Part shown: positions 45,328-53,302 of the stretch, piece by piece
How positions within the stretch are numbered: position 1 is the stretch's first letter
Layout: every line of letters starts with the position of its first letter
Origin: Flavobacterium ammonificans
GTDB lineage: Bacteria > Bacteroidota > Bacteroidia > Flavobacteriales > Flavobacteriaceae
NCBI RefSeq assembly: GCF_020885975.1
Contig: NZ_AP025183.1
Location: 806,001 to 870,000, forward strand
Direction: 5' to 3'
Length of the DNA: 64,000 bases
Translations under genes and position numbers: made by a program
The notes under the pieces: model-generated
What the model saw: the letters and a program-made list of their open reading frames with translations, nothing else
What the model was told of the DNA's origin: nothing
Database searches by the model: none

Positions 45328-48111
45328 TTAATTGGCATTGTCAATTTGTAAATAACCGGTTAATTCGGTTTGTTTATCTACAAATGTATTATTGTAAACT
45401 AAAATGAAAAAATAGGTTCCAGAGGGTAAAAAGCTGTCTTTCATATACACCCCCGAAACATTAGCTTTGCCTTTAAAAGCGTTACTCATATTGTCATATC
45501 CTGAAGTTTCCCAAACTAATTTTCCATATCGATTGTAAATTTTCACCGAATTATCTTGAAAATAGGAGATGTCATCAAAGGTTAATTGGTCGTTTAATGA
45601 ATTTCCATTAATGGTAATTAAGTTGTATGCAGTTATATTACATTTAAAAAGATCTACTTTAACAGCTAATCGTTGTAAACTTTCACAACCAGTTGCTGCA
45701 TCTATAGTTGTTGCATAATAGGTTGTATTGTCTTGTAAAAGTGTTGCATTGTCAATAGTCATACCATTAGTAAGGGCATCAAACCATAGGATGGAGTTGC
45801 CTGTTACTATTAAATTTGAAATTACAAGATTTTCTTCTAAACAGAATTTTTGAATTTCATCTCCTTTGGGTGTTGGGACCTTTACTATTGAAACAGTAGT
45901 TTGAAAACGATTAGTACTTTCACAACCATCAATAGTTTGGGTAGCAAAATAGTTAGTTTCATTAACTAAAGCGGTAGTATTATTTAAAGCTGTAGTTCCT
46001 GTTGCGGATGCAAACCACTTAACATCTGTTCCATTGACTGCCAAGGCAGCAATTGTAGAATCATTGCAAAACTGTTGTTTAGCAGCACCCGTTGGAGCTG
46101 GAGTGTTTTTTACTGTAATTGTGATGCTTTTTCTACAGGTACTTTCATTTGTGGTTACATCTACCCAATAGGTAGTTGTTACTAAAGGTTTTGGATTTAT
46201 GGATGAGGTAGTTTCTCCAGTTGACCATAAGTAGGAATAAGTTGCTAAATTTTCAATTTCATAAATAGGAAAAGCTGTTGTACAACCACAAGAATTGTTA
46301 CTAGGATCTCCGGCATCATTCCACTTCATTCCAAATACATTCCATTCTATTTGACCAAAATTTTCTGAATTTTCTGTATTGTTAGGCTCTCCTGTATACC
46401 AGTTTGTGTATTGTAAAGGGGAATTATCAACCCACTTCCACCCTCCAGAAGGTTCGGAATAATTAGATGAAGATAAATCTTGGTACAGCCCAATCCAGTA
46501 TTGAATACCGTCATTTCCTCTTGAAGGGAGTGCATTATAAACTGATAATTCTTCGTTGGCATCATTTATTATATACATTGAAGCACCTATTTGATCTCCA
46601 TGTATTTTGGCTCCTGGCCAAGTAGTTGCTTGATTTTTATAAAAATAAGAATGACTTCCAATTGTTTTAAAAAGTATCAAATCAGGGTTTGCAAGTTGAA
46701 ATTGACTTAAAGATTGTGAACTGTTGTTTATTTTCAAATTTACCTGATCGCCAATACACACTTCAGTTGCACTAGCCGTAATTTCTGGAATATTTTCAAT
46801 CGTAGTAGTAACTGCTAAACGAGTTAAACTTTCGCAAGAAGACGAGCTAGCCGAAGCATAATAAGTATTTCCATTTACAAGTGAAGTTGTACTTGGTATT
46901 AAATTACCTCCTGTCGCTGCATCATACCATTTGATTGAATTTCCTGTTACAACTAAATCTGAAATAGTAGTTGATGAGCAAAAAAATTGGGTAGATGATC
47001 CTGTAGGGGCTACAACAGCAGGAAGTATTGAAATAGTCATAGTTGCAGTGGAGCCACACTGTCCATTATTTGGGGTAAAAGTATAGGTTGTTGTAGCTGT
47101 ATTATTTAAAGCTGGAGACCATGTTCCTGTTATCCCATTGTTGGAAGTTAATGGCAAACTGATTGTGCCACCTGAACAAATAGGCGCTATTTGATTAAAA
47201 GCAGGCGTTGTAAGTGATATAGGGGGTAAATTTAAAACGCTTTGAATCACACATCCTTCAGGACTTCGTATCCAAATATTTTGATTTCCTGGACTAATTG
47301 TAAGTGAATTAGAAGTTGAGTAATTGGTGCCATTAAGCGAATATTGAGCAGTATTTACATTGGACAATAATTCAACAGTATATTGACTGCAGGTTGAACT
47401 TAGTATAGTATAACCAGTATAATTAAAAGTGTTAATTGAGGTTGCTTCATTATCATATTGAATTGAACCTACAGCAGCTCCATGATTTATATTAGCTATC
47501 TCATTTAATAAATTAGAATTGAATTTATAATACCCTTTTAGTCCAACTTGAGTAGATGGATTTGGTAAAGTATTCATATTGTTTTTAATATCGTTTTCAC
47601 TTCTGCAAACGTTCCATATTCGCACTTCATCAATGGAGCCAAAAAATTGTTCAAACTCTTGAAAGTTTGAAGTTCTATTTCCAATTCCAGTGTTTATATT
47701 ATTTTGCAATAAATTCCCGGTGGCAGGATTTTTAATTACCAAGCATCCATTCACATAATACCTTACAAATTGACCGTCATAAGTGCCTGCAACATGATAC
47801 CATTTATTTAATTCCAAAGCATAGGGATTGTTCATTAAATAAAATCCATTGCTAGTACTAATTTCAAAAGTTTTAGGACGTAATAAATAATTTAGATTGG
47901 AGGAGTCAGTATGCTTTGAAACAATATTCATAGCATAGGCTGAAGTTGAAGACATGAAAATTTTAGCTTCAACAGTAAGTTGATTCCCCGTAATGTCTAA
48001 ATCACCAATATTGACGTATTGATTCGTATTGGTAAGTTTAAGACTTTGTCCAAAAACTAACTGTGTAAAAAGGAAGCTAATGCATAGTAGTGTTTTTAGT
48101 TTCAACTTCAT
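45328..48111 (-). CDS. T9SS adhesin with LamG-like, Ig-like, C-type lectin and gliding-motility C-terminal domains
   Basis: A large surface protein of 927 residues. It has a signal peptide (cut near FGQS) and a LamG/concanavalin-like domain at about residues 20-190. Several Ig-like (Ig_7-type) repeats follow with SSTTISDLVVTGNSIKWYDA and related copies. A C-type lectin domain sits at about residues 475-620 (YWIGLYQDLSS, WKWVDNSPLQYTNWYTGEPN, NSCGCTTAFPIYEIE). Two more Ig-like repeats follow. The CHU_C gliding-motility domain ends the protein (VKIYNRYGKLVWETSGYDN), a type B sorting signal that depends on the adjacent PorP/SprF. Probable role: binding glycans or particles at the cell surface. 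Confidence 0.92.
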   Translation of the reverse strand: MKLKLKTLLCISFLFTQLVFGQSLKLTNTNQYVNIGDLDITGNQLTVEAKIFMSSTSAYAMNIVSKHTDSSNLNYLLRPKTFEISTSNGFYLMNNPYALELNKWYHVAGTYDGQFVRYYVNGCLVIKNPATGNLLQNNINTGIGNRTSNFQEFEQFFGSIDEVRIWNVCRSENDIKNNMNTLPNPSTQVGLKGYYKFNSNLLNEIANINHGAAVGSIQYDNEATSINTFNYTGYTILSSTCSQYTVELLSNVNTAQYSLNGTNYSTSNSLTISPGNQNIWIRSPEGCVIQSVLNLPPISLTTPAFNQIAPICSGGTISLPLTSNNGITGTWSPALNNTATTTYTFTPNNGQCGSTATMTISILPAVVAPTGSSTQFFCSSTTISDLVVTGNSIKWYDAATGGNLIPSTTSLVNGNTYYASASSSSCESLTRLAVTTTIENIPEITASATEVCIGDQVNLKINNSSQSLSQFQLANPDLILFKTIGSHSYFYKNQATTWPGAKIHGDQIGASMYIINDANEELSVYNALPSRGNDGIQYWIGLYQDLSSSNYSEPSGGWKWVDNSPLQYTNWYTGEPNNTENSENFGQIEWNVFGMKWNDAGDPSNNSCGCTTAFPIYEIENLATYSYLWSTGETTSSINPKPLVTTTYWVDVTTNESTCRKSITITVKNTPAPTGAAKQQFCNDSTIAALAVNGTDVKWFASATGTTALNNTTALVNETNYFATQTIDGCESTNRFQTTVSIVKVPTPKGDEIQKFCLEENLVISNLIVTGNSILWFDALTNGMTIDNATLLQDNTTYYATTIDAATGCESLQRLAVKVDLFKCNITAYNLITINGNSLNDQLTFDDISYFQDNSVKIYNRYGKLVWETSGYDNMSNAFKGKANVSGVYMKDSFLPSGTYFFILVYNNTFVDKQTELTGYLQIDNAN

Positions 48112-48127
48112 ATTTGTAGAGAGTATT

Positions 48128-48436
48128 TTAAATTTTATGATGTATCAGTAAACAAGCTACATATACTGAGATTTTATTGTTAGGACATTCTTGCCATTTG
48201 GGTTGGTTGTACAATGAAGTTCGAAAAGTGTATATTTCTTTATCTGTTTTATTGACTTGATTAATTCGTTCTTTAACACTTTCAACAATTTCGTTTTTAA
48301 CAGCTAAGAAATAATTCATTTTTCCAAAACGAAGTAGTAATACACCATTCTCAATTGCATAATCAAATGAAGATCTTTTGCCTAAGGTTAAATGGTTAAA
48401 AATGGGAGCGGATATAGTATCTTTTGTTCTTTTCAT
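48128..48436 (-). CDS. Small hypothetical protein in the T9SS surface locus
   Basis: A 102-residue protein with no signal peptide or membrane segment that I can see; the family is unrecognised. Its middle (NGVLLLRFGKMNYFLAVKNEIVESVKERI) looks like a compact strand-helix fold. It lies 16 nt before the adhesin gene and 67 nt after the collagen-like gene, on the same strand, so it is probably co-transcribed. As a cytoplasmic protein between secreted ones it could be regulatory or a chaperone, but nothing in the sequence proves this. Confidence 0.6.
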   Translation of the reverse strand: MKRTKDTISAPIFNHLTLGKRSSFDYAIENGVLLLRFGKMNYFLAVKNEIVESVKERINQVNKTDKEIYTFRTSLYNQPKWQECPNNKISVYVACLLIHHKI

Positions 48437-48503
48437 TTTTTAATTAGGGTATAATTTTAATTTGCAATTCAATTGTTTGTTTTGATTAATTTTTGAAATA
48501 GAG

Positions 48504-50324
48504 TTAATATTCAATTACACTTATGCCATAAAGATTAGTGCTTGGCTCAATTACTGTCCCTTCTGGCAACCAAATATTTCCTTTCATCAAATCAAAAGTC
48601 ATTGCTCCCCATGCATTGGCATTATAAAAATCTTCTGAATTCCCAACATATATCGAATTCCCATTTATCTTTATAATAAATTCTTTTCTACCGATAAAAT
48701 TTTGTGACGGTAAGACCGATGATAATTTCCATTTCTTGCCAATTGGAACAGTAGTAGATGTTGTAATTAAGTGACATTTTAAATTTGTATTATCAATTTC
48801 TTGAATTGATAAAAATCCTATATTTTCAACGGAAGTTATGTTTATAGTAGTTCCGCTCGGGAACCAAAAATCACCTTCAACTAAAAATGAGGTCCACATA
48901 ATAATATCATCATTCTGATTTACAGTTCTTTTATTTGTAGTGCCTATGTATACATTATTACCATTTATACTTATAATTTTATCCATATTATTAAACCAAG
49001 AAGCATTTGCTAATATATTTGATATCCTTGCACTTTTACCCACAGGAACTGTATAAATAGATGTATTGTTTAAAAGAAAAACATTAGATAATTGATTATC
49101 GATGTTACCATTATTTATGTTGCTTAAACTATTACAAATGTAGCTAACGTTTGATATTTCGGATAAATCTAGATTACCATTGTTATTAGTGTCTAGTCCA
49201 ACTTCAATTTTGGTTCCGCCATCAGCACAATTAGCGCCTGCAGCTTCTGTAGTGGTATTGACCAAAGTATTCTTCCCATTCGTTCCCGCAGCACCTTGTG
49301 GTCCCACTACAGCAATACCGCTCCCCCAAGCCCCACTAGTTTTAGGGCCAAACAACGTATTAGTAGTAGTGTTAATGTAAAAATCACCATTGTTTCCCGT
49401 GCTATTTGTTGGGTCTTGATTTCCGTTTAGGATAGTTTTTCCATCTAATCCATTGGCTCCGTTAGTCCCTGTTATTCCTTGTGGTCCTGTATTACCAGCA
49501 GGTCCAGCTATTCCAGCTACTCCTTGTGGACCTTGAGCTCCAGTAGCTCCCTGTAAAGCGGTTAGAAATTGTGATTCGGTTCCGGTATTACCTGCATTGA
49601 GCCAAATTTGATAAGCAGACAAACCATCTTGTCCATTGCTGCCATTAATCCCTGCTATTCCTTGTGGTCCTGTACTACCAGTTGGACCGGCAATTCCTTG
49701 GATCCCCTGCGGACCAACTAGTGGTACACCATTTCCCCAAACGTCATTTGTTTTAGGTCCAAAAAGGTTACTTGTAGCGGTATTAATGTAAAAATCACCA
49801 TTGGTCCCAATACTAGCGTTTGGAATAGTTGTTCCATTTAAGACTGTTTTCCCGTCAAGTCCATTGTTGCCTGCAGGACCTTGTGTTCCAGTCACTCCTG
49901 TATGCGCAGCATAGAGTGCAAAAGGGACATAGGTAAAAGGCTGGTTGCTAATTTCAATAAAATGAGTTGACTGACCACTTGGATCTAGGGATACAATTAA
50001 ATTTTTAGCAGAACCATCCCAATTGATGGTGCTAAATTGAGTTGCTATTCCAGCTTTTCGAGTACCGGTACCAATGACAACATTTACCATTCCAAATTCA
50101 TCAGTTTGTGTATTGATGATTTCTTGGTAGTCTAATGAAGAAGAGGCATTAAGAATTTTAAATTCTAAAGTAATATCTTGATTTACCAAAGGCAAACGGG
50201 AGTTGTCTGCACCAGGCAATTCTTCTGTATTTGGATTTAAGATAACCGCTTGATAGGTAATGCCATTTTGAGCTTGAGACCAAAATGTGCACAAAATTAT
50301 AAGTAGAGTATAAAAATTCTTCAT
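48504..50324 (-). CDS. Secreted collagen-like repeat protein
   Basis: About 606 residues from the ATG at 50324, which precedes a clean signal peptide (KNFYTLLIILCTFWSQAQ). The frame is open 12 codons further upstream to 50360, into the neighbour. Gly-X-Y tracts cover two regions (GPQGIQGIAGPTGSTGPQG and GPQGVAGIAGPAGNTGPQG among them), split by near-identical NGDFYINT-NLFGPKT segments. A DUF7151-like stretch follows (ANCADGGTKIEVGLD) and then a duplicated beta-rich head (INGNNVYIG, INGNSIYVG). There is no obvious T9SS domain. It probably forms a trimeric stalk-like surface fibre. Its start overlaps the beta-barrel gene's end by about 1 codon to 26 nt, depending on start. Confidence 0.86.
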   Translation of the reverse strand: MKNFYTLLIILCTFWSQAQNGITYQAVILNPNTEELPGADNSRLPLVNQDITLEFKILNASSSLDYQEIINTQTDEFGMVNVVIGTGTRKAGIATQFSTINWDGSAKNLIVSLDPSGQSTHFIEISNQPFTYVPFALYAAHTGVTGTQGPAGNNGLDGKTVLNGTTIPNASIGTNGDFYINTATSNLFGPKTNDVWGNGVPLVGPQGIQGIAGPTGSTGPQGIAGINGSNGQDGLSAYQIWLNAGNTGTESQFLTALQGATGAQGPQGVAGIAGPAGNTGPQGITGTNGANGLDGKTILNGNQDPTNSTGNNGDFYINTTTNTLFGPKTSGAWGSGIAVVGPQGAAGTNGKNTLVNTTTEAAGANCADGGTKIEVGLDTNNNGNLDLSEISNVSYICNSLSNINNGNIDNQLSNVFLLNNTSIYTVPVGKSARISNILANASWFNNMDKIISINGNNVYIGTTNKRTVNQNDDIIMWTSFLVEGDFWFPSGTTINITSVENIGFLSIQEIDNTNLKCHLITTSTTVPIGKKWKLSSVLPSQNFIGRKEFIIKINGNSIYVGNSEDFYNANAWGAMTFDLMKGNIWLPEGTVIEPSTNLYGISVIEY

Positions 50325-50334
50325 TTTTTGAGGT

Positions 50335-50952
50335 TTAATTAATGGCGTAGTGAATACCAAATTCTAATTGATGAGAACTAAATCCTAATTTTTGATCGGT
50401 CGAGTTAGACAAATTGATTCCTTTACAATAATTATATCCTAAACTAATATAGCCAGCAGCGGCAAGATTATATTTTACTTGTAAACCAAGGCTTGGAGTT
50501 ACTAATAAACCACTAAACTCTTTTTCTTTAGTTAAGTCAAAATAAGTGCCGTTGATGGTTTGTTTTCCTCTAATGATTGTACCAAGATTGAATCCAAAAA
50601 CAGGTAGAATGTCGAAATTATTTCTGTTATTTAGAATTGAATAGGATATTCGAGATTGAATGCTCAGATAATTAGTATCCCAATAATAACTATTTGTTAA
50701 ATTTCCCCCTGCACTATTGTACTCATTTAATGCTAAACCAATATTTAAATTAATTTTTTCATTAGAAAGAGGTTTAGTATAACCTAATTCATAAAAATTC
50801 CCTGATCCATTTTTTAAATTAGGGTTAGAAGCCCCACTAGAATTTTTAAAATAATAAGTGGTGAAATTTTTTCCTGTATAGAAATAGACTTCTTGTGCGA
50901 AACTATTTTGATAAATTATATAAAAGCTGATAATTAGAAATAGTTTTTTCAT
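50335..50952 (-). CDS. Predicted outer-membrane beta-barrel protein
   Basis: A 205-residue protein with a signal peptide (cut after NSFAQ) and a series of alternating strands separated by Asn/Ser/Gly turns, for example NLNIGLALNEYNSAGG and VTPSLGLQVKYNLAAAGYISLGYNY. It ends HQLEFGIHYAIN. This fits the small OmpA/OmpX-like barrels of Bacteroidota. It overlaps the upstream sorting-domain gene by 4 nt (ATGA) and runs into the collagen-like gene, so all are one operon. It may anchor the collagen-like protein, but that is inference. Confidence 0.75.
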   Translation of the reverse strand: MKKLFLIISFYIIYQNSFAQEVYFYTGKNFTTYYFKNSSGASNPNLKNGSGNFYELGYTKPLSNEKINLNIGLALNEYNSAGGNLTNSYYWDTNYLSIQSRISYSILNNRNNFDILPVFGFNLGTIIRGKQTINGTYFDLTKEKEFSGLLVTPSLGLQVKYNLAAAGYISLGYNYCKGINLSNSTDQKLGFSSHQLEFGIHYAIN

Positions 50953-51437
50953 TTTGATTGTATGATTTGAGTGTAATAATTCAATTTATCTGCAGTTAAA
51001 CGAACTAGATAAGTTGCGGATGGTAGTTGTAGGTTTGCAATAGAAAGTATTTTTTCGTTTGGTTTTTTCGTTTCTTGATATACTATTTTACCTGTTATGT
51101 CAAATAGTGTAATCTGAATGCTTGTATTTATTAGTTGTGAAAATTGAAAATAGACTGTGTCAAAGAAAGGATTGGGATAAGTTTTTGTACTTATAATCGA
51201 AGCGTCATTGGTTTTAATATAATTGCTCCATAGACTTTGTTGGTATCCTTGCGAAATAGTAAGATTGTTTTTTTGAGAAGTACCAGTTAAACTCTGCTGC
51301 CCTATAGACTGAGATATGTACATTCCATTAGCAATGGTAAAACTATTACCTTGAGCAGTTACCATTTGGCGTTGTAAGTTTTGACTATAAAGAGTGCTAC
51401 TAATTGCTAGAAATACTACTAGTATTGTTTTTTTCAT
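50949..51437 (-). CDS. Small secreted protein with T9SS type A sorting domain
   Basis: A 162-residue protein, nearly half of it the sorting domain. The signal peptide is cut after TLYSQ. A short mature region follows (GNSFTIANGMYISQSIGQQSL, reading GQQSLTGTS as seen in other Bacteroidota). The C-terminal domain TKTYPNPFFDTVYFQF, then ITLFDITGKIVYQE and ATYLVRLTADK is type A. This layout, a tiny cargo plus sorting domain, is common at the head of such surface operons. It is first in the minus-strand operon that runs on to the PorP/SprF gene. Confidence 0.85.
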   Translation of the reverse strand: MKKTILVVFLAISSTLYSQNLQRQMVTAQGNSFTIANGMYISQSIGQQSLTGTSQKNNLTISQGYQQSLWSNYIKTNDASIISTKTYPNPFFDTVYFQFSQLINTSIQITLFDITGKIVYQETKKPNEKILSIANLQLPSATYLVRLTADKLNYYTQIIQSK

Positions 51438-51583
51438 TCGTGTTTTTAGTAAAATTGAAAATGCGGGGACAGTTCGAATTAAAAATAGCCTAACTCATTT
51501 AAGCATTTCAAAATATCGTTGGAAATCATATTTTCTACTATTTTTACAGGAACAACTAATTGATAATCAAAACAATATAAAAA

Positions 51584-51611
51584 TAAGAAAAACGCCTTGT
51601 TGAAGGCGTTT
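51584..51611 (-). terminator. Terminator after the kelch regulator gene
   Basis: The stem AAACGCCTT/AAGGCGTTT (51590-51598, 51603-51611) has loop GTTG. Minus-strand sequence after it is T-rich. It separates the kelch gene from the surface-protein operon downstream. Confidence 0.8.
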
Positions 51612-51633
51612 CTTGATGCATTTCTACTATAGG

Positions 51634-52992
51634 TTATACTTTTTTAAGTAGTTTTGGGAGTAAAAGAAGGTCTTTGAGTCGTTTGTCCTCCATGTTTTTT
51701 TGTTCCAACTGTAGTTTGTTCTCCGGTATACCTGTTAATTTAGAGACTTTATTGAGCAACCCATTAATGGCTTGTTCTCTTCGTTTAATGATAGCCGAAG
51801 CAGTTTGAGGCTGAGCTGGGTTTTCAAACAGGCCATTCAATTGGTTTAAGGAAACAAATTGGTTGCTATTAGCCAATAAAAAGTGCAGTATCTTTTTCTC
51901 ATTTTCTTCAAAATGAATAATGACTTTTCTTTTGTATAAAAACTGGTCTTTATTGCTGTCATAAACAATTCCTTTGAAAGGTTTTTGGAATGAAAGAATT
52001 CTTTTTTTATAGCCAATAATAACCAAACCCAAAAATAGTATTCCAATGAATCCAATTATAAGATAATTATTAAAAGTTGTATTATCCTCAACAAAAAAAG
52101 GAACTGTTCCAATGTATTTTCCTTTCAAGTCATCAATTGTAGTTTTTTTGAAATAGTATTTATTTTCAGTGGTAGAAAAAATTCCATTAATAGTATCGCC
52201 AACTATGAAATGTTGTTTGAGCAACTCGTAATTTTTAAATTGATATTTCTTTGCGATCTTATTAGTAAAATCTATTTCAATAATATAAGCATCAATTAAA
52301 TACAGTTTATTTTTAATTTGAACTTTCTTTTCTGAAGCCGTTAACAAATCAGCATTGTACGAACCAATACTCGACCAAGTCATAGTGTGTAAATTCAATT
52401 CCCAGAGTTGGGACTGTACAGGCTTGCTTATCAAAATGTCGCTATCATCACCTGTGAACCCCCCAAATAGGTAAAGATTGTTATTATCTCTATAGTTGTA
52501 GGCATCTGTTCTTGATTCTGGCTTGGCTAGCCCATTTGTTTGTATTTGATTCCATTCTCCGCTTTTAAAGTCATATTTAGTAATAATATTTTTATGAGTA
52601 AACATACCATAGCCACCAAAGAGGTAGATCTCATTGTTGTAAACAAAAGGAATACATCGGTATTGATTTTTGTGTAAAAAGGAACGATCTATACGAACTA
52701 TGGAATCGTTTCTAAACTCTAAAACGGGTCCACAGCCTTTATGTACAAGATAGGTTTTTGTGCCTATTTCAAAGGGAAGGTATTCGCTTATTTTATCCGG
52801 ATATTCGGTATGCTTAAATGGAATGAGCTGTTTCCCTTTGTATACAAGAGAATCGTTAATAATAATGATGGGTTGTTTTGATTTGGCCTCTTTGAACAAT
52901 AGCAAATCATCATAGCGTTTCAATTTTTGCCCCTGACTTGTGGTAGCAATCAGCAGGGAAAATAGCAGCAGTAGTATATTTTTTTTGACCAT
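51634..52992 (-). CDS. Kelch-repeat protein with one membrane segment and a C-terminal winged-helix-like region
   Basis: 452 residues in a layout suggesting a one-piece membrane regulator. A signal peptide (residues 1-22) precedes a beta-propeller-like part with kelch motifs (NEIYLFGGYGMF near 120, NLYLFGGFTGDD near 172). One strong membrane helix follows at 310-328 and a basic stop (YKKR), then about 120 cytoplasmic residues. These include ENEKKILHFLLANSNQFVSL and LNGLFENPAQPQTASAIIKR, which look like the helices of an OmpR/ToxR-type winged helix, though I cannot prove DNA binding. No kinase or receiver motifs are present. It lies just upstream of the T9SS surface operon, its most likely target. 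Confidence 0.72.
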   Translation of the reverse strand: MVKKNILLLLFSLLIATTSQGQKLKRYDDLLLFKEAKSKQPIIIINDSLVYKGKQLIPFKHTEYPDKISEYLPFEIGTKTYLVHKGCGPVLEFRNDSIVRIDRSFLHKNQYRCIPFVYNNEIYLFGGYGMFTHKNIITKYDFKSGEWNQIQTNGLAKPESRTDAYNYRDNNNLYLFGGFTGDDSDILISKPVQSQLWELNLHTMTWSSIGSYNADLLTASEKKVQIKNKLYLIDAYIIEIDFTNKIAKKYQFKNYELLKQHFIVGDTINGIFSTTENKYYFKKTTIDDLKGKYIGTVPFFVEDNTTFNNYLIIGFIGILFLGLVIIGYKKRILSFQKPFKGIVYDSNKDQFLYKRKVIIHFEENEKKILHFLLANSNQFVSLNQLNGLFENPAQPQTASAIIKRREQAINGLLNKVSKLTGIPENKLQLEQKNMEDKRLKDLLLLPKLLKKV

Positions 52993-53178
52993 GTTGTGAG
53001 GGAATCATAGATGTAAGAAATATAGTCAAATATCTAGTATAATCTGATAGAATGAAACAAAAATTAGTGGAAAATGTATTTTATTGTATTTTTATTATTG
53101 CTAAAATCCTGTTAATCAATTGAAATAGCAACTTTAGAAACCAATTACAATTTTCAATTTATCTGCGAATCATTGGCT

Positions 53179-53239
53179 GGATTGCTTCGTCGTTCCTTCT
53201 AGCAATCCACTTCCTACCTTGGTGCCTTCGTGGCAAAAC
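53179..53239. repeat. Intergenic inverted repeat with tail
   Basis: GGATTGCT (53179-53186) and AGCAATCC (53201-53208) form a perfect 8-bp inverted repeat around TCGTCGTTCCTTCT. It is followed by CTACCTTGGTGCCTTCGTGG. Both parts resemble repeats that recur between genes in flavobacterial genomes (from memory). It has no coding potential. Confidence 0.55.
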
Positions 53240-53242
53240 AAT

Positions 53243-53279
53243 AATATAAAAAACCCGCCAAAATTACTCTTGACGGGTT
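53243..53279 (-). terminator. Terminator after nuoN
   Basis: AACCCGCCA/TGACGGGTT pair with one mismatch, and the minus-strand flank is T-rich (TTTTTTATATT). It ends the complex I transcript. Confidence 0.78.
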
Positions 53280-53302
53280 AGGATAAATAATTTGTAATGG
53301 AA

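Follow-up and report, generated by a model that had tools for sequence, protein, structure and literature searches.

A putative membrane-spanning kelch regulator and its candidate palindromic operator beside a T9SS surface operon of Flavobacterium ammonificans

Organization of the locus

The window, i.e., the whole stretch of 64,000 nucleotides that was analysed, carries on its reverse strand a gene coding for a protein with kelch motifs that we have called kelch-A (Table 1). As the first-pass annotation had stated, this gene is located directly upstream of a T9SS operon on the same strand, the next gene coding for a protein with a Por_Secre_tail domain. The same annotation gave kelch-A a terminator of its own, and a terminator-like hairpin (51613-51588 on the minus strand) was indeed found between both genes, with an RNA fold z of -2.69 and 5/200 shuffles equally good. 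The five surface genes between 45328 and 51437 are presumed, from their strand and spacing, to form one operon. The collagen-like gene in it (region 45328-50360) varies in length, coding for 618 aa in the window, 513 in G756 (a genome of the same species) and 753 in Flavobacterium sp. UBA6721.

Table 1. Features discussed in the text. Positions are those of the window, except for the last four lines, which give locus and position.
Feature	Position	Strand	Basis
Kelch-TM-tail regulator gene (kelch-A)	51634..52992	-	452 aa, intact ORF
Probable signal peptide, N-terminal hydrophobic stretch, residues 1-22	52927..52992	-	By eye and hydropathy
Ectodomain, residues 23-305, kelch motifs at 117-213	52078..52926	-	Pfam
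Transmembrane helix, residues 310-328	52009..52065	-	Hydropathy; basic flank after helix
Cytoplasmic tail, residues 333-452, probable winged helix, DKR motif	51637..51996	-	Profiles; weak model
Terminator-like hairpin after kelch-A	51588..51613	-	RNA fold
Half-degenerate operator-like site ACAATAAAATACATTTTCCACT upstream of kelch-A	53066..53087	-	Alignment with orthologues; promoter geometry; not the best hit of the PWM
Proposed operator AGTAGAAAATATGATTTCCAAC of the T9SS operon	51518..51539	-	Alignment, matrix, genome and genus scans
-33-like element TTTG, 5 nt after operator	51509..51512	-	Promoter comparison
-7-like box TATTTTTA, 30 nt after operator	51480..51487	-	Promoter comparison
Surface operon gene 1, 162 aa, Por_Secre_tail (T9SS type A), E=3.9e-10	50949..51437	-	Pfam
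205-aa secreted or outer-membrane-like protein, no Pfam match	50335..50952	-	
618-aa collagen-like protein with DUF7151	48504..50360	-	Pfam
102-aa protein, no assigned function	48128..48436	-	
927-aa LamG / lectin / Ig-like protein, CHU_C T9SS domain	45328..48111	-	Pfam
Long kelch-membrane protein	L177 4796-7357		
Long kelch-membrane protein	L178 3107-5659		
Long kelch-membrane protein	L180 4959-7517		
Long kelch-membrane protein	L181 5345-7876		

The kelch-A gene is genuine and intact, and it evolves under purifying selection. Against the orthologue of UBA6721 the dN/dS was 0.15 overall and 0.07 in the tail, and the identity was 92% in the tail, 87% in the first half of the ectodomain and 57% in the second. 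Matches to Kelch_6, Kelch_3, Kelch_4, Kelch_1 and Kelch_2, all within residues 117-213, passed the curated Pfam cut-off and place kelch-A among the kelch proteins; beyond these residues Pfam recognized no further kelch blades by sequence. Apart from the kelch families there was no Pfam match at E ≤ 5 and no NCBIfam match, and with neither a kinase nor a receiver domain among the matches the earlier claim that the protein works with no phosphorelay stands. The best Kyte-Doolittle window past residue 200 was 310-328 (score 2.52), the very segment that had been annotated as a single helix. Its flank is basic on the C-terminal side (KKRILSFQKPFK) and not on the N-terminal side, so that, by the positive-inside rule, the tail would be cytoplasmic. 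The kelch motifs in Pfam and the flank charges agree with the periplasmic kelch part claimed at first, and the predicted order is periplasmic kelch domain, single membrane helix and cytoplasmic tail.

The C-terminal tail

The tail of kelch-A is probably a winged helix, similar to those of OmpR/PhoB and MarR; we call it only probable because the support consists of profiles, a partial hhalign match and a low-confidence model. By itself, this tail matched no Pfam model at E ≤ 1. When 46 tails of the family were compared with Pfam, the commonest match was SarA/Rot, in four members (best E 0.048), and Trans_reg_C was matched by 2/46 (best 0.0096). The top PDB match to the 46-row tail profile was the putative transcriptional regulator 2k4j (115 residues, E=0.0012), and the matches also included AdcR of the MarR family (0.0019), DrrD (0.038), the MarR-type 3bja (0.039), DrrB (0.051) and the ubiquitin ligase fragment 4m3l (0.037). 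In hhalign, the tail profile aligned with 15 OmpR-type domains from related genomes with 77.6% probability over 50 columns only, a match that spans the hairpin, the first helix and the start of the second and ends before the recognition helix and the wing; a thin control of three GerE domains gave 0.8%. The DKR motif in the wing region has two residues, D436 and R438, that are invariant in 46/46 aligned tails, and the same D-x-R ending was seen by eye in 14 more proteins from 13 phylum-level loci (L164-L176).

A fold prediction of the tail had been suggested in the first-pass annotation. AlphaFold, run on a two-sequence input, gave a pLDDT of 38.6 for the whole of kelch-A and 58.5 for the tail, too weak to decide the fold; the tail model had the order strand-strand-strand-helix-helix-helix, and next a low-confidence helix at the expected wing position. 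None of the 131 Foldseek matches to the tail model reached E ≤ 0.001, and the query-normalised TM-score was at most 0.29 among the matches listed. Ranks 1, 2, 4, 5, 6, 9 and 10 were CosR, DrrB, CosR, CosR, PhoB, PhoB and VbrR, which is suggestive, and rank 3 was a viral integrase domain. The winged-helix-like tail of the early description thus holds at the level of profile matches to OmpR/PhoB and MarR, but not as a confident fold model.

Other families of the phylum have long kelch-membrane proteins (843-853 aa) with a larger and different C-terminal part. In L177, L178, L180 and L181 this part had no Pfam match, and we take it to be SARP-like from its looks. The idea that the kelch-A tail is a short form of it was not supported (hhalign 0.16% against the four tails).

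Distribution and neighbors of the family

The genome of the window has one paralogue of kelch-A, 40% identical (G000:C1:1305155-1306516). Close relatives are rare, being found at E ≤ 0.001 in 8/150 related genomes, two of these matches being distant or partial, and the scan of genome contigs gave one relative, in Flavobacterium sp. UBA6721 (75% identical). None was found in the viral contigs searched. A profile search (E ≤ 1e-6) had matches in 28/397 genomes of the taxonomic family, 24/398 of the genus and 34/395 of the phylum, several of the phylum-level matches covering the kelch part alone or sitting in longer proteins. By the threshold used, a helix after residue 200 was present in 46/47 proteins within a narrow range of positions, and the tail length among the 47 was 80-128 residues, the shortest one ending at a contig end. 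G127 and G129 of the kelch motif are invariant in the 46 aligned proteins, and a KLHDC2-type kelch model matched 44/46 members at E ≤ 0.1.

A T9SS gene directly adjoins 10/32 members in the genus, in 8/32 immediately downstream and on the same strand. In terms of neighbor slots this amounts to 11/64, as against 3/288 among the other genes of the same loci (Fisher p=7.8e-7, some slots being contig ends and orthologous loci being repeated). The T9SS detection profile was seeded with ten domains, mostly from these same neighbors, and in each of the ten proteins given to it Pfam found the domain as well. TIGR04183 had 10 matches in all in the own genome and 7 to 68 in the other genomes tested. No T9SS neighbor was found for 22/32 genus members, the paralogue group included.

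In other genera (L070, L071, L074, L075 and others), pairs of family members flank a gene for a family 4 glycosyltransferase, with NusG-like, SLBB/export and Wzz genes alongside (Pfam, selected L075 neighbors). The members at L070, L071, L074 and L075 are possible capsule or exopolysaccharide regulators. Since some members outside the genus adjoin glycosyltransferase, export and Wzz genes, the family may have to do with surface structures of any kind.

Two genomes illustrate variation at these loci. G756 has two tandem kelch genes (L144 8150-11048) where the window has one (within 51634-53302). The DNA identity between G756 and the window was 83.0% for the kelch gene and 79.9% for the next-but-one barrel gene, versus 97.9% for nuoM, 95.0% for nuoN and 98.8% for the T9SS gene. 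As judged from the sequences, the kelch/surface locus is a mosaic that appears to change fast. In G782 (L182 2948-4606) a 79-aa remnant of a kelch-regulator tail adjoins a LamG T9SS gene and a gene coding for 110 aa; here the surface gene persists, whereas its regulator seems to be in decay.

A palindrome at a fixed distance from a -7-like box

The alignment of intergenic stretches brought out a 22-bp imperfect palindrome, AGTRGAAAATATNNTTTCYAAC, at 51518-51539, its sole exact match in the 2.27-Mb genome. This candidate operator falls inside 51438-51633, the interval that the first-pass annotation had singled out for DNA-binding tests. A near-identical palindrome precedes the downstream T9SS gene in the window, G756, UBA6721, G064, two G014 loci and G807. 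In the window, G756 and UBA6721 the gene behind it codes for a 162-aa T9SS protein and is followed by barrel and collagen-like genes; in G064, the G014 loci and G807 it codes for LamG T9SS proteins (Pfam).

A PWM was built from these seven T9SS-gene palindromes and scored against 300 shuffles per region. It found sites 66-92 nt before six kelch genes, the number of shuffles as good being 0/300 in UBA6721 and G807, 1/300 in G756A, 4 in G064a, 5 in G014a and 6 in G756B. A weaker site was found in the divergent gap of G707 (13/300), and another site upstream of the paralogue operon (1/300). There was no convincing site for G014b (192/300 shuffles as good), G064b (266), G026 (125), G591 (291), G800B (104) or G792B (54), nor in the G064b-LamG gap (48/300) or the G086 gap (24/300). 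Upstream of the window's own kelch gene the PWM gave nothing convincing, its best hit (24/300) being elsewhere than the half-degenerate site of Table 1. Outside the genus, the palindrome was unseen upstream of most family members.

In its operon (G000:C1:1305155-1307091) the paralogue comes second, behind a small membrane protein of ~130-160 aa (L023 7569-8045 and seven orthologues) that had no confident Pfam match (DUF6560, E 0.0088, below cut-off), and its candidate operator precedes the gene of this small protein. The element AGYRGAAAATATTGTTTCGTRC was found upstream of the operon in 7/8 orthologues and was absent in G728. Over six sequences, 19/22 columns of this element are invariant versus 51/412 elsewhere.

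Flavobacterial sigma-A promoters are described as having a -7 box TAnnTTTG at -12 to -5 (PMC9723704). In 24 promoters, chosen for having the palindrome (one was added by alignment), a box [TGC]AnnTTT[GA], defined after seeing the sequences, began 30 nt behind the palindrome in 18 promoters, 31 nt behind it in four and 32 nt in one, and all other offsets from 0 to 49 together gave 8 box matches, 4 of them at offset 0. The -33-like TTTG was equalled by 3/500 shuffles in the T9SS promoter of the window and was weaker elsewhere, down to 278/500 in G707. If the box corresponds to -12 to -5, the operator would span about -64 to -43, a usual position for an activator.

The T9SS-type site, allowing up to 3 mismatches, had three matches in the own genome, i.e., the exact one in the window, one with 2 and one with 3 mismatches, and the reversed control had 1; within the window alone the chance expectation was 0.09. 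The site with 2 mismatches falls in coding sequence and was attributed to chance. Without mismatch, AGNRGAAAATAYNNTTTC occurs twice in the own genome, at both kelch loci. It had 15 sites in 24 family-bearing genomes, 12 of them at family loci by tally (reversed control 0), and 12 sites in 28 genomes without the family (reversed control 4), these having been picked from those listed without a match and being mostly larger genomes. The looser GAAANNNNNNTTTCN{35,36}ANNTTTR gave 4 matches in the own genome, 2 of them at kelch loci, versus 3 for the reversed control. Throughout the 398 genomes of the genus, the composite GAAAATAYNNTTTCN{35,36}ANNTTTR had 72 sites (reversed control ~28 by count), 18 of which fall within 1 kb of a family member (36 members in all), and in 17 of these cases site and member share the strand. 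It was present in 15/24 genomes with the family versus 47/374 without (Fisher p=6.9e-8, close relatives not being independent). The composite was derived partly from the same loci, so this test shows the whereabouts of the site and is not an independent discovery. In family-bearing genomes four composite sites lie elsewhere than near members. Two sites in family-free genomes were rejected as operators, being in coding sequence or having no plausible promoter, and a paired palindrome found 1.6 kb away from the member in G630 is probably due to chance because its flanks differ.

Proposed mechanism

The reading that we favor, and consider probable, is that kelch-A is a membrane-integrated one-component regulator that activates the T9SS operon from the site at 51518-51539. 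The N-terminal kelch domain would face the periplasm and meet a signal there, presumably a ligand that controls the protein, one helix would cross the inner membrane, and the C-terminal tail would be a winged-helix-like DNA-binding domain. We infer that this tail, probably as a dimer, binds the palindrome just upstream of the -33 element, from where kelch-A would help the RNA polymerase to start the five-gene surface operon. Its relatives may act likewise on their own neighbors (genes for LamG T9SS proteins) and often on the genes that encode the relatives themselves. The domain layout, the conserved palindrome, its fixed distance to the -7-like box and its co-location with the family are the parts of this scheme that the sequences show.

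The same membrane DNA-binding protein and operator could instead keep the surface operon repressed until a signal in the periplasm lifts the repression, since a palindrome beside the -33 element could block the RNA polymerase and location alone leaves the sign unfixed. However, the site ends 3-6 nt before the proposed -33 element, keeps a near-constant distance to the -7-like box in several groups of promoters and overlaps neither. Such a placement is common for activators, although in several promoters the -33 element is poorly matched. We infer activation and regard repression as unlikely. It is also conceivable, but rather improbable, that the palindrome belongs to another transcription factor and that kelch-A is a membrane sensor acting on that factor or on something else, with the tail as a protein-protein domain. 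The low confidence of the tail models and the many family members without a site would fit, palindrome binding by the tail being predicted from sequence; against this, the sites accompany the family at different chromosomal positions and beside different neighbors, and the best PDB matches of the tail profile are mostly winged-helix regulators. Bacterial kelch propellers include mutarotases, and 13/46 members weakly match the YjhT mutarotase (best E 1.1e-05), but a membrane-anchored protein with an enzymatic or structural role by the surface operon, its tail and the palindrome being unrelated to each other, is very unlikely in view of the strict co-location of site and family and of a conservation that is highest in the tail and in the first half of the ectodomain.

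With activation by kelch-A as the preferred reading, a wider proposition can be made, for and against which we see the chances as balanced. Transmembrane kelch-sensor activators would be a so far unnamed family across much of the Bacteroidota. In the genus of the window, each site-bearing copy would switch a single surface gene or operon of its own, working through a composite promoter with the 22-bp palindrome 30-31 bp before the -7 box. Elsewhere in the phylum copies are found at polysaccharide-export loci, and the family might be a general surface-remodelling switch whose divergent ectodomains read different envelope or environmental cues. To our knowledge, little is known about what turns on individual T9SS surface proteins. 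The candidate regulator-operator pair is concrete and makes for a predicted regulon of two loci in a small genome. The kelch/helix/tail family, otherwise known to Pfam and NCBIfam as kelch only, would gain a name and a function.

Comparison with known systems

In the open-licence literature that was searched, with all terms required, we found no paper on kelch transmembrane regulators or on operators of T9SS genes in Flavobacterium. ToxR-like receptors are described as having a periplasmic sensor, a single transmembrane helix and a cytoplasmic OmpR-type DNA-binding domain, with no phosphorylation step, the DNA-binding domain of CadC corresponding to residues 1-107 (PMC5430869). Like ToxR and CadC, kelch-A has a predicted periplasmic sensor and a single transmembrane helix (hydropathy, flank charges). 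Unlike in CadC, its sensor is N-terminal and its predicted DNA-binding tail C-terminal, and unlike in both, the sensor is a kelch domain and the tail only distantly OmpR-like. The first-pass annotation had seen a plan similar to ToxR/CadC with a different sensing domain; the working principle and the kelch sensor agree with it, but the domain order is reversed, and because of this kelch-A falls outside the class, being ToxR/CadC-like in principle and not a member. Both the kelch sensor and the order of domains depart from this textbook case.

The tail profile resembles the winged-helix domains of OmpR/PhoB response regulators and of MarR; unlike these proteins, kelch-A has no receiver, is predicted to be membrane-anchored and carries the invariant DKR motif in the wing region. 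The histidine kinase, receiver and AraC domains of hybrid two-component systems (HTCS) are all absent from its matches (Pfam E ≤ 5, NCBIfam).

SusR-like regulators are described as membrane proteins restricted to Bacteroidetes, with a periplasmic sensor and a C-terminal cytoplasmic DNA-binding domain, that activate adjoining operons, and the SusR motifs as direct repeats 67 or 77 bp apart (PMC3878776). Compared by layout, kelch-A is like SusR in its N-terminal periplasmic sensor and its C-terminal cytoplasmic tail, the latter with a presumed role in DNA binding. The direct repeats of SusR contrast with the compact 22-bp palindrome of the kelch-A family, and SusR serves glycan use whereas kelch-A adjoins T9SS surface genes. 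In its layout SusR is closer to kelch-A than ToxR/CadC are, but it differs in the DNA motif.
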